Of a stretch of 64,000 nt of DNA, positions 10,325 to 24,786 are shown piece by piece (position 1 is the first letter of the stretch; the number at the start of each line of letters is the position of its first letter). The stretch is from positions 1,364,001 through 1,428,000 of the forward strand of contig NZ_LT607412.1 in assembly GCF_900091455.1 (NCBI RefSeq). The letters run 5' to 3'. The stretch comes from Micromonospora coriariae (GTDB lineage Bacteria; Actinomycetota; Actinomycetes; Mycobacteriales; Micromonosporaceae). The notes beneath the pieces are model-generated. The model worked only from the letters and a program-made list of their open reading frames with translations, searched no databases and was not told the DNA's origin. Both the position numbers and the translations under genes were made by a program.

Positions 10325-11986
10325 TCAGCGGCCGTTCGGCGTCCCGTGTGCGCCGGCTGGCGTGTTAGTAGGGGGCCCTTCCTCTACCGCAGGCGTTAAC
10401 AAGGTGCCCTTCCTTACCCCGAGGCCGTAGGTGAGGGCGTCGACGAGGGCGTGCCAACTGGCCTCGACGACGTTGGGGTGCACGCCCACGGTGGTCCAGT
10501 CCCGGCCGCCGCCGTCGGCGGTCTCCAGCAGCACCCGGGTAACGGCGCCGGTGCCGTGGCTGCCCTCCAGGATGCGCACCTTGTAGTCGGCCAGCTCGAA
10601 GTCGCGCAGCTGCGGGTAGTGCCGGGCCAGCCCCACCCGCAGCGCCTCGTCCAACGCGTTGACCGGACCGTTGCCCTCGGCGGTGGCGATCACCCGCTCG
10701 CCGCGTACCCGGATCTTGACGGTCGCCTCGGAGACCACCGCGCCGTCCTCGCGGTGCTCGACCAGCACCCGGTACGACTCCAGAGTGAACGGCCGGGCCG
10801 GGCCGCCCTCCGGCAGCTCCGAACGGACCAGCAGTTCGAAGGAGGCGTCCGCGGCCTCGAAGGACCAGCCGCCGGCCTCCAGCTCCTTGACCCGGTTGGT
10901 GACCCGGGTCAGCGCCTCCGGCTGGCCGGCCAGGTCCAGGCCGAGCTCACGACTCTTGAGCTCGACGCTGGCCCGGCCGGCCATCTCGGTTACCAGGATC
11001 CGCATGTCGTTGCCCACCACCGACGGGTCCACGTGGTTGTAGAGCAACGGGTCGACCTTGATCGCACTCGCGTGCAGCCCCGCCTTGTGAGCGAAGGCGG
11101 CGGCCCCGACGTAGGCCTGGTGGGTGTCGGGGGCGATGTTGGCGATCTCGGCGATGGCGTGCGAGACCCGCACCATCTGCGCCAGGCAGCCCTCCGGTAG
11201 GACGGGCATGCCGAGCTTGAGTTGAAGGTTCGCGACGATCGCGAAAAGGTCCGCGTTGCCGGGGCGTTCGCCGTACCCGTTGGCGGTTCCCTGGACGTGG
11301 CGGACCCCCGCCTCGACTGCGGCGATGGTGTTGGCCACCGCGCAGGCGGTGTCGTTCTGGGCGTGCATGCCGAGCAGTCCCGCGTCGATCCCGAGCCGGT
11401 CGGTCAGGTCGGCGATCACGGCGGTCACCTGGGACGGCAGCATGCCGCCGTTGGTGTCGCAGAGCACCATCCGCTCCGCGCCGGCGGCCAGCGCGGCCTG
11501 CACCACGGCAGCGCCGTACGCCGGGTCGTGCCGGTACCCGTCGAAGAAGTGCTCGCCGTCGACGAAGACGCGCCGGCCCTCGGCGACGAGGTGGCTGACG
11601 GTGTCGTGGATCATCGCCAGGTTCTCCGCGCCGGTGGTGCGCAGCGCCCGCTCGACGTGCCGGGTGTCGGCCTTGGCGACCAGCGCCACCGCCGGGGTCT
11701 GCGCGTCCAGCAGGCCGCGTACCTGAGGGTCGTCGGCGACCGCCACACCGGCCTTGCGGGTGGCGCCGAACGCGACAAGCACAGCGTGCCGCAGATCCAG
11801 CTCCGTGCGTGCCCGGCGGAAGAACTCGGTGTCCTTGGGCACCGCGCCCGGCCAACCGCCCTCGATGAAGCCGACGCCGAACTCGTCGAGCAGCCGGGCC
11901 ACCGCCAGCTTGTCGACCACCGAGTAGGTGAGCCCCTCGCGCTGGGCACCGTCGCGCAACGTCGTGTCGTAGACCTGGAACGTCAT
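10325..11986 (-). CDS. cimA: (R)-citramalate synthase
   Basis: A 553-residue enzyme condensing pyruvate and acetyl-CoA to (R)-citramalate, the entry to threonine-independent isoleucine synthesis. The N-terminal TIM barrel opens with FQVYDTTLRDGAQREG, then GVGFIEGGWPGAVPKDTEFF, which fits CimA rather than LeuA. Metal ligands are in GMHAQNDTACAVAN, with GTANGYGERPGNADL after it. A LeuA-type regulatory domain occupies roughly residues 390-530. The ATG at 11986 follows GAGAAAGGATCC. The last 31 or so residues are encoded by a 54-bp dispersed repeat (10364-10417) and the sequence after it, so the C-terminus is longer than expected. Upstream lie a leader peptide and terminator that indicate attenuation. 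The alternative call, 2-isopropylmalate synthase, is less likely. Confidence 0.92.
   Translation of the reverse strand: MTFQVYDTTLRDGAQREGLTYSVVDKLAVARLLDEFGVGFIEGGWPGAVPKDTEFFRRARTELDLRHAVLVAFGATRKAGVAVADDPQVRGLLDAQTPAVALVAKADTRHVERALRTTGAENLAMIHDTVSHLVAEGRRVFVDGEHFFDGYRHDPAYGAAVVQAALAAGAERMVLCDTNGGMLPSQVTAVIADLTDRLGIDAGLLGMHAQNDTACAVANTIAAVEAGVRHVQGTANGYGERPGNADLFAIVANLQLKLGMPVLPEGCLAQMVRVSHAIAEIANIAPDTHQAYVGAAAFAHKAGLHASAIKVDPLLYNHVDPSVVGNDMRILVTEMAGRASVELKSRELGLDLAGQPEALTRVTNRVKELEAGGWSFEAADASFELLVRSELPEGGPARPFTLESYRVLVEHREDGAVVSEATVKIRVRGERVIATAEGNGPVNALDEALRVGLARHYPQLRDFELADYKVRILEGSHGTGAVTRVLLETADGGGRDWTTVGVHPNVVEASWHALVDALTYGLGVRKGTLLTPAVEEGPPTNTPAGAHGTPNGR
10364..10417 (+). repeat. 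54-bp dispersed repeat, copy 1 (inside cimA)
   Basis: Two half-copies of a GTTANNAAGGGGCCCTTCCT-like unit, GTTAGTAGGGGGCCCTTCCT and GTTAACAAGGTGCCCTTCCT, are separated by CTACCGCAGGC. Copies 2 and 3 are at 32016 and 50563 in the same orientation. Read on the cimA strand it is open and encodes VRKGTLLTPAVEEGPPTN, so it has extended the CimA C-terminus. Confidence 0.85.
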
Positions 11987-12004: not shown

Positions 12005-12037
12005 CAACAAAAAGACCCCCCGCGGATGCGGGAGGTC
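12005..12037 (-). terminator. cimA attenuator terminator
   Basis: On the minus strand GACCTCCCGC, loop ATCC and GCGGGGGGTC form a 10-bp hairpin (12037-12014) followed directly by TTTTTGTT. It is a classical Rho-independent terminator located between the leader peptide stop and the cimA ribosome-binding site. CCCTCCGC at 12055-12048 can pair over 8 bp (one G-T) with the terminator 3' arm GCGGGGGG at 12023-12016, giving an alternative antiterminator. Confidence 0.85.
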
Positions 12038-12067
12038 TGCGCGCTCGGCGGAGGGAGGGCCGGCGCG

Positions 12068-12100
12068 CTAGGTCGCAATAATCAGGGCGGTGCTGGTCAC
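12068..12100 (-). CDS. cimA leader peptide (isoleucine attenuation)
   Basis: A 10-codon frame beginning GTG and ending TAG that reads MTSTALIIAT. It contains CTG followed by two consecutive ATT isoleucine codons, which are rare in a genome that strongly prefers ATC. It lies 31 nt before the terminator hairpin and 81 nt before the cimA start. Ribosome stalling at the Ile codons when charged tRNA-Ile is scarce would free the antiterminator and permit cimA transcription. The start could also be read as leaderless, since CAGAGT lies 7 nt upstream. Function is inferred from the arrangement. Confidence 0.75.
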   Translation of the reverse strand: MTSTALIIAT

Positions 12101-12326
12101 GATCGCTACTCTGCCACCGCTCCCCTGGTTTTGGGAGGAACAATCCACATGGCGGGACGGTCACACACGGTTGCCACTATCCGGGCCCTCCTCCAGCCTC
12201 GGACACAACCCACCGCTCGTGATCGGCTTCACAAGTCACCTGCCCGCCCACCGGCGAAAACTCGCCTACGGAAGTATCTGGAACCAATCCAGTTACCGGC
12301 CCCTGTGCCGCTCCCGAGGAGGACCC

Positions 12327-12887
12327 TTGCTCACTGTCGGTGATCGCTTCCCCGAGTACGAACTCACCGCCTGCGTGTCCCTCGACGCCGACAAGGCGTT
12401 CGAGACGCTCAACCACAAGTCCCACGAGGGCAAGTGGCGCGTGGTCTTCTTCTGGCCGAAGGACTTCACCTTCATCTGCCCGACGGAGATCGCCGAGTTC
12501 GGCCGGCTCAACGGCGAGTTCGCCGACCGGGACGCGCAGGTCCTGGGGGCGTCGGTGGACAACGAGTACGTCCACTACGCGTGGCGCAAGGACCACCCGG
12601 ACCTTCGGGAGCTGCCCTTCCCGATGCTCAGCGACATCAAGCGCGAACTGGCCGCCGCCTGCGGCGTGCTCGGCGAGGACGGCGTGGCCCAGCGCGCGAC
12701 GTTCATCATCGACCCGAACAACGAGATCCAGTTCGCCATGGTCACCGCCGGCTCGGTCGGCCGCAACGTCTCGGAGGTGCTGCGGGTGCTCGACGCACTG
12801 CAGACCGACGAGCTGTGCCCGTGCAACTGGAACAAGGGCGGCGAGACCCTCGACGCCAGCGCGCTCCTCGCCGGCGCCGGAGCCTGA
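12327..12887 (+). CDS. ahpC: Alkyl hydroperoxide reductase C (peroxiredoxin)
   Basis: A 186-residue 2-Cys peroxiredoxin that reduces H2O2, alkyl peroxides and peroxynitrite. FFWPKDFTFICPTEIAEFG has the peroxidatic Cys near residue 46, and the C-terminal ELCPCNWNKGGETL has the CPC pair used in the mycobacterial-type AhpC-AhpD relay. The start is TTG at 12327: it gives the expected MLTVGDRFPEYELTACV opening, and GAGGAGGA lies 4 nt upstream. ahpD follows after 2 nt, so the two are an operon ending in a hairpin at 13433-13469. No oxyR gene is adjacent. Confidence 0.95.
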   Translation: MLTVGDRFPEYELTACVSLDADKAFETLNHKSHEGKWRVVFFWPKDFTFICPTEIAEFGRLNGEFADRDAQVLGASVDNEYVHYAWRKDHPDLRELPFPMLSDIKRELAAACGVLGEDGVAQRATFIIDPNNEIQFAMVTAGSVGRNVSEVLRVLDALQTDELCPCNWNKGGETLDASALLAGAGA

Positions 12888-24690: not shown

Positions 24691-24725
24691 CAATAAAAAC
24701 GGCCCTCGTGCAGATGCACGGGGCC
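24691..24725 (-). terminator. ilvB attenuator terminator
   Basis: On the minus strand GGCCCCGTGC, loop ATCT and GCACGAGGGCC form a hairpin with one bulge (24725-24701), followed by GTTTTTATT. It lies 94 nt before the ilvB start, after the leader peptide. Confidence 0.85.
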
Positions 24726-24726
24726 A

Positions 24727-24753
24727 GCGCACTCTCGATGAGGGAGAGTGCGC
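24727..24753 (-). promoter_or_regulatory. Pause hairpin of the ilvB attenuator
   Basis: A perfect 10-bp stem, GCGCACTCTC and GAGAGTGCGC, with a 7-nt loop. It begins at the base after the leader peptide stop codon, so a ribosome on the last leader codons would cover its 5' arm. I do not see a clear antiterminator pairing by eye. Confidence 0.7.
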
Positions 24754-24786
24754 TCAGGTAAGTACTCGCGACCGGTACGACGACAT
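24754..24786 (-). CDS. ilvB leader peptide (valine/leucine attenuation)
   Basis: A 10-codon frame reading MSSYRSRVLT and ending TGA. It contains GTA CTT, uncommon Val and Leu codons in this genome, just before the stop. The ATG lies exactly 7 nt after the -10 box CAGGCT, itself 17 bp after TTGACT, so the transcript probably begins at the A of the ATG. An in-frame GTG at 24810 would add 8 residues but lies inside the promoter. The length is the same as the cimA leader. Confidence 0.75.
   Translation of the reverse strand: MSSYRSRVLT

Follow-up and report, generated by a model that had tools for sequence, protein, structure and literature searches.

In Micromonospora coriariae, a short reading frame with two adjacent isoleucine codons and a terminator-like hairpin lies directly ahead of cimA, the gene for (R)-citramalate synthase, which raises the question of whether isoleucine supply sets the level of this enzyme through the leader RNA and, if so, which structure opposes the terminator. 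The locus sits in a 64-kb window, the whole stretch of DNA analysed here, within a genome of 6.93 Mb. A first-pass annotation read the element as an isoleucine leader-peptide attenuator of cimA, and that reading has held, with codons, frame, terminator and position all conserved. Its further remark that the full attenuator logic is visible goes too far, because the antiterminator it proposed lacks support from covariation; a hairpin that it did not report, P1, is the likelier partner of the terminator (T), and the step by which the two would exclude each other is one that we infer.

CimA scores far under the cut-offs of the listed LeuA models and is up to 97–98% identical to CimA of named Micromonospora. 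The gene belongs to a branched-chain cluster encoded on one strand (ilvB, ilvN, ilvC, serA, leuB, ilvE and cimA). Upstream is a divergent plus-strand gene at 12327–12887, its start estimated at about 12327, so that the terminator ahead of cimA serves no adjacent same-strand gene upstream; its protein, presumably peroxiredoxin-like by motif, has no NCBIfam match at E 1e-60. Across the 64 kb no Rfam family matched at its gathering score; the best match at the locus scored 21.5 bits, where 58.8 are required. The features are collected in Table 1.

Table 1. Features of the putative cimA attenuator and of the related ilvB leader, in window coordinates.
Feature	Position	Strand	Basis
cimA, (R)-citramalate synthase, predicted regulated gene	10325..11986	-	TIGR00977, 605.7 bits (cut-off 450)
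-10-like promoter box TGGCAGAGT, 7 nt before leader GTG	12108..12116	-	Motif spacing; putative promoter function
Leader ORF, GTG to TAG, MTSTALIIAT, 10 codons, probably leaderless	12068..12100	-	Sequence, relatives
AUU AUU, candidate regulatory Ile codons	12077..12082	-	Adjacent Ile codons in 142/149 leaders
P1 5' arm GCGCGCCGGC; first base is last base of stop codon (G of UAG)	12059..12068	-	Fold, covariation
P1 3' arm GCCGAGCGCGC, ending directly against terminator	12039..12049	-	Linker counts
Intrinsic terminator hairpin T (arms 12038-12028, 12023-12013)	12013..12038	-	Fold, covariation
Terminator U tract; first U pairs with first A of terminator	12009..12013	-	Direct reading of sequence
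ilvB leader, MSSYRSRVLT*, same architecture	24696..24786	-	P1 24754-24726, T 24725-24701

The ten-codon leader (GTG ACC AGC ACC GCC CTG ATT ATT GCG ACC TAG) lies before the terminator at the place and on the strand given in the first-pass annotation. We assembled 149 cimA loci of the family, fetched by protein: 80 from named relatives and 69 from a search of 150 family genomes, the 69 being drawn from the 149 non-window genomes as 29 search loci and 40 fetched stretches. These loci are not independent, as the collections overlap and 13 pairs are identical over the element and 250 nt upstream; they comprise 129 distinct sequences. Leader, P1 and T were present in front of cimA in all 149 loci examined, including 80/80 named relatives, which argues against a chance resemblance. 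The 69 loci together with the window represent 42 genera out of 44 sampled; the best cimA matches in the remaining two had E values of 1.7e-54 and 7.2e-8, and we read these genera as having no cimA orthologue.

Loss of the isoleucine codons or of the frame in close relatives had been named in advance as the result that would count against an attenuator. Adjacent isoleucine codons are instead kept in 77/80 named relatives, in 142/149 family leaders and in 123/129 distinct sequences; the seven other leaders carry Ile-Leu (three), a single Ile (two) or Met-Ile (two). The choice of codon is equally marked. Among leader isoleucine codons of the 149 loci, AUU occurs 267 times and AUC 32 times (89% AUU); within cimA itself (first 522 codons of 80 genes) AUC occurs 1,187 times, AUU 16 times and AUA 4 times, such that AUU accounts for about 1%.

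Transcription probably begins at the leader GTG, giving a leaderless message. In 131/149 loci the motif [CT]ANNNT lies precisely 7 nt upstream of the leader start, the next commonest distance being 2 nt (17 loci), and the extended form TGG[CT]ANNNT precedes the start in 127/149; because the initial choice of start had partly used the -10 match, the box was counted again with starts chosen independently of it. A Shine–Dalgarno-like motif precedes the leader start in 4/149 loci and precedes cimA in 108 of the 109 tested. The box at its fixed distance and the scarcity of ribosome-binding motifs together suggest a leaderless start, and the box also argues for a transcript that begins upstream of the hairpins. 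That the leader is translated appears probable from its frame and codons. Leaderless leaders have been reported for ilvB, leuS, leuA and trpE of Streptomyces lividans (PMC8079986), and in Corynebacterium glutamicum the 5' end of the ilvB transcript is a single nucleotide away from the start codon (PMC11857589). By eye, a conserved stretch (ATGTGGATT..., CTCCCA) was also spotted about 15–35 nt before the -10-like box (12150–12132, minus strand) and recurs at the same place in many of loci L002–L068; it lies in the interval upstream of both cimA and the divergent gene and may serve as a -35 element, an operator or the promoter of the divergent gene.

Behind the leader, the RNA folds into two hairpins. 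Together P1 and T reach -41.7 kcal/mol (z -5.05; 0/200 shuffles as low). T reads GACCUCCCGC-AUCC-GCGGGGGGUC followed by UUUUUG, and its stem has the 10 bp first described for it, although it is perfect only if G-U pairs are counted, one being a U-G wobble; the A-U pair noted in Table 1 extends it to 11 bp. In a separate fold with the terminator 5' arm held unpaired, the Shine–Dalgarno region of cimA pairs with the 3' arm and the U tract of T (12019–11988, minus strand).

The geometry around P1 is tightly constrained. The linker between P1 and T is 0 nt in 135/149 loci and 1 nt in 14/149 (117 and 12 among the 129 distinct sequences). The 149 comprise 109 loci, mostly Micromonospora (L002–L111 without L082), and 40 loci of 35 other genera (L112–L151); in the latter the linker is 0 nt in 37 and 1 nt in 3. 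The folds of the 149 loci contain no base common to P1 and T, with the P1 register taken as folded. From the end of the last isoleucine codon to P1 the distance is 8 nt in 129/149, 7 nt in seven, 5 nt in five, 11 nt in three, 6 nt in three and 10 nt in one; L126 was mis-scored because P1 there contains a later Ile codon. The stop codon ends on the first base of P1 in 135/149 loci and downstream of it in 14/149; in none does it end upstream, which is what coverage of P1 by a ribosome at the stop would demand. The span of P1 itself varies from 26 to 47 nt. Its ends are thus fixed to the presumptive stall site and to the terminator, and its interior drifts.

Covariation of the stems had been proposed as a check on the annotation, and it divides the candidates. 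Across 61 aligned sequences, 13/21 pairs of P1 and T changed on both sides, 89.4% of cells were paired and 0/500 shuffles scored as high on each of five measures. Sliding the P1+T register by +1 gave more double-change cells (57 vs 40), yet just 45.5% of cells then paired. Taken separately, T had 98.5% of cells paired, with 6/11 pairs changed on both sides, and P1 had 79.4% paired; in the alignment used, that of our RNA model R1, some rows have the upper stem of P1 out of place.

No such signal attends the antiterminator of the first-pass annotation, in which ribosome stalling would let CCCTCCGC (12055–12048) pair with the 3' arm of T. The pairing can form in the window sequence, over 8 bp, but the segment is made up of the P1 loop and some bases of the P1 3' arm, belonging to a hairpin that the annotation had missed. 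Over the 61 sequences this helix pairs 70.7% of cells in its own register, against 47–59% when slid; shuffled alignments give 70.9%, and 329/500 shuffles are at least as high. Helices of at least 8 bp to the terminator 3' arm occur in 74/109 of the mostly Micromonospora loci vs 28% for shuffles, but in only 8 of the 40 loci of other genera, the chance level (shuffles 20%). The pairing would further have to displace a nearer and stronger hairpin (-18.9 vs -32.1 kcal/mol with bases 1–43 masked) and is absent from the best terminator-free fold with only bases 1–34 masked. Lacking covariation and falling to chance outside the first set, it was rejected as a conserved part of the element; we regard it as very improbable as the switch, and P1 as the more likely partner.

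We likewise rejected an antiterminator of the classical type, one that would take up the 5' arm of T. The longest complementarity to that arm falls below shuffles over the 149 loci (mean helix 3.03 vs 4.38 bp in L002–L111 and 3.58 vs 4.66 bp in L112–L151), so that no antiterminator of this kind is visible, and no candidate other than P1 emerged from the search.

Beyond the family, we searched with R1, which was built with a zero linker; for this reason the spacing statistics above are limited to family loci fetched by protein. In the genome of the window, with E values allowed up to 10, R1 finds one copy; it misses diverged copies, since the ilvB leader in the same genome has the same layout yet goes unmatched. 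With Infernal's stricter filters, R1 matched in 131/200 genomes of the order at E 0.1 and in 99/148 genomes of the class at E 0.01. A cimA gene was detected at E 1e-100 in 116/148 class genomes, and in 83 of these 116 an R1 match lies 20–230 nt upstream. The 33 cimA genes without a match count against our preferred explanation. Upstream regions of 25 of them were inspected by eye: a leader was recognized in two (L263 and L290), and several of the genes stand directly behind an ilvE-like gene. The inspected set included 10/10 cimA genes lacking a match in family f32 and 4/10 in family f40. Those inspected in f40, and some others, directly follow an ilvE-like gene by eye, which suggests that the attenuator was lost there through operon fusion. 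In the class, 43 R1 matches are not in front of cimA. Strong matches occur at G336:C98:135113-135185 and G376:C46:13750-13821, in genomes without a cimA match at E 1e-100.

In another alternative no hairpin switches: T would terminate transcription prematurely, with readthrough governed by ribosome–polymerase coupling, by an unknown protein or constitutively, or it would end a small RNA encoded beside cimA. The want of any antiterminator sharing terminator bases, and the depressed complementarity to the 5' arm, speak for such an arrangement. It leaves the conserved isoleucine codons, the rare AUU and the fixed Ile–P1 and P1–T spacings without a role, and does not account for the recurrence of the element close upstream of cimA in the class; we consider it improbable.

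The same scaffold precedes ilvB. In the window, the ilvB leader (Table 1) has a zero P1–T linker and a z of -6.98, and the last base of its UGA starts P1; it has a leaderless-type start and contains GTA CTT codons. Ten second R1 matches were fetched from order genomes, nine of which precede an ilvB-like gene and one (L195) does not; eight of the nine genes are among the TIGR00118 matches, the ninth (G304) being assigned by sequence motif only. Among 31 ilvB loci chosen without the model (30 of 60 matches plus the window), our finder saw T in 19, with a hairpin ending 0–5 nt upstream of T, by the boundaries that the finder drew, a looser spacing than at cimA; its misses are uninformative, because it missed the window's own ilvB terminator although this is present. 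In the leaders displayed, cimA has mainly isoleucine codons and ilvB mixed valine, leucine and isoleucine codons.

Comparative evidence from sequence thus supports well an isoleucine attenuator of cimA, and we hold this identification to be highly probable. We propose a cis-acting, ribosome-mediated transcription attenuator through which the amount of citramalate synthase would follow isoleucine supply. Transcription would begin at the GTG and the leader peptide would be read from the leaderless 5' end. With ample Ile-tRNA, the ribosome would pass AUU AUU, reach the stop codon and cover the 5' arm of P1; with P1 blocked, T would form and transcription would end. With scarce Ile-tRNA, the ribosome would halt on AUU AUU, the last of these codons 8 nt before P1, with its front edge at about the start of the hairpin, leaving P1 free to form. 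A ribosome extends about 10 nt beyond its A-site codon. P1 is therefore placed to form under isoleucine shortage, as an antiterminator would need to be, since a ribosome that has reached the stop codon would lie over its 5' arm and one waiting at AUU would barely enter it.

How P1 would then oppose T is less apparent. In the unmasked minimum-energy fold of the window leader both hairpins form; in ribosome-masked folding T forms at every mask tried, P1 coexisting with it up to mask 34 and gone from mask 36, which covers four P1 bases, onwards. Thermodynamics by itself does not show a switch in this leader, and because both hairpins fold together in free RNA, exclusion would have to come from the polymerase or from kinetics. 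We suggest that P1 acts as an antiterminator that shares no base with T: its GCGCGC base touches the base of T with no linker, and paired P1 would prevent closure of the lower T pairs, a step that has to take place within the exit channel of RNA polymerase. We propose exclusion there on the grounds of the zero linker and of the stability of the GCGCGC base.

P1 might also have the opposite role and aid termination, as a pause hairpin, an anti-antiterminator or a partner of the terminator, and a ribosome stalled at AUU would then block P1 and allow readthrough. P1 and T do coexist in the unmasked fold, and clusters of hairpins have been proposed to help intrinsic termination (PMC8355165). In the lineages with 5-nt spacing (5/149) a waiting ribosome would overlap the base of P1, and the masking of four P1 bases, as at mask 36, already drops P1 from the window's best fold; both observations fit a termination-aiding P1 and count against an antiterminating one. 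Against this, at the prevailing 8-nt spacing a stalled ribosome of the usual footprint would reach no more than about 2 nt into P1. The stop codon, moreover, ends at or inside P1 in 149/149 loci, so that a ribosome finishing the leader also blocks P1, which gives the wrong sign for a termination aid unless release is fast. We judge a termination-aiding P1 unlikely. For P1 as an abutting antiterminator we see the case as evenly balanced; the combined statement, a leaderless ribosome-mediated isoleucine attenuator with P1 abutting T, seems probable to us as a whole, with the weight on its first half.

More tentatively, cimA and ilvB leaders may represent a class-wide actinobacterial family built on one scaffold. 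The antiterminator would have no base in common with the terminator, and zero-linker abutment would be all that makes the two mutually exclusive: the first base to close in the exit channel would win, and a ribosome halted at rare AUU would decide the fate of the upstream helix. The cimA element adds isoleucine synthesis by the citramalate route to what leader peptides probably control in Actinomycetes, the identity of the leader codons gives the regulated amino acid, and zero-linker exclusion offers a geometric hypothesis for actinobacterial branched-chain attenuators. The RNA model would let annotators mark such leaders.

In the trp-type attenuator of enteric bacteria the ribosome stalls at codons of the end product, and the 2:3 antiterminator shares a strand with the 3:4 terminator. 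The cimA element would have in common with it the stall at end-product codons and the choice between two RNA states by ribosome position. It has a leader of end-product codons, presumably translated, and a terminator between leader and gene, as ribosome-mediated attenuators do; it differs in having no antiterminator that shares a strand with the terminator, the pairing of the terminator 5' arm lying below shuffles, and its candidate antiterminator is unusual in not overlapping T. Leader attenuation is known for ilvB, and the literature searched, including under SCO5529, which we take to be the cimA locus tag, yielded no attenuator of cimA; because subscription papers lay mostly outside that search, we do not claim that none is in print. 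The term 'cima' is absent from the main texts of PMC8079986 and PMC11857589.

Within the phylum, the LEU element of leuA and the ileS T-boxes (PMC1262725) similarly place branched-chain genes under RNA-level control; as described there, they work through a pseudoknot or tRNA binding, and the window contains no Rfam match at gathering score. Actinobacterial ilvB leaders share with the cimA element a short Ile/Val/Leu reading frame and a terminator before a branched-chain gene, and the window's ilvB leader has the same P1/T layout as cimA; the available text of PMC1262725 describes no P1 antiterminator for these leaders and does not name cimA. That source, from 2005, called the mode of regulation of actinobacterial branched-chain attenuators unclear and some of their elements missing. 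It also cites a null result for the ilvB leader of Streptomyces coelicolor, in which altering codons had no effect, and this counts against our model.

The closest studied relative is C. glutamicum ilvBNC. According to the available text of PMC11857589, loss of its start codon cuts expression by 80%, a result taken there from earlier work. That result opposes our model, which without an anti-antiterminator predicts the opposite. An anti-antiterminator, H1, is proposed for Corynebacterium; none was seen in folds of the window's cimA leader, in which the unmasked RNA, examined for an H1 over the leader reading frame, retained P1 and paired weakly at its 5' end. The Corynebacterium leader also differs in serving ilvB and in carrying Ile, Val and Leu codons (PMC11857589, PMC10272879). 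The likenesses, by the same two sources, are closer to the mechanism: in ilvBNC and the ilvB-II motif, a leader with branched-chain codons has a hairpin close behind its control codons, CUU and GUA; in ilvBNC, the base of the terminator meets the base of the antiterminator; and the cimA leader, by its sequence, appears leaderless as these do. In ilvBNC the antiterminator hairpin (36–79) and the terminator (77–113) compete at touching bases (PMC11857589), overlapping by three nucleotides, GCC, where P1 and T of cimA abut at 0 nt with no shared base; even with those three bases shared, this competition, by analogy, supports the idea that two abutting hairpins could exclude one another.
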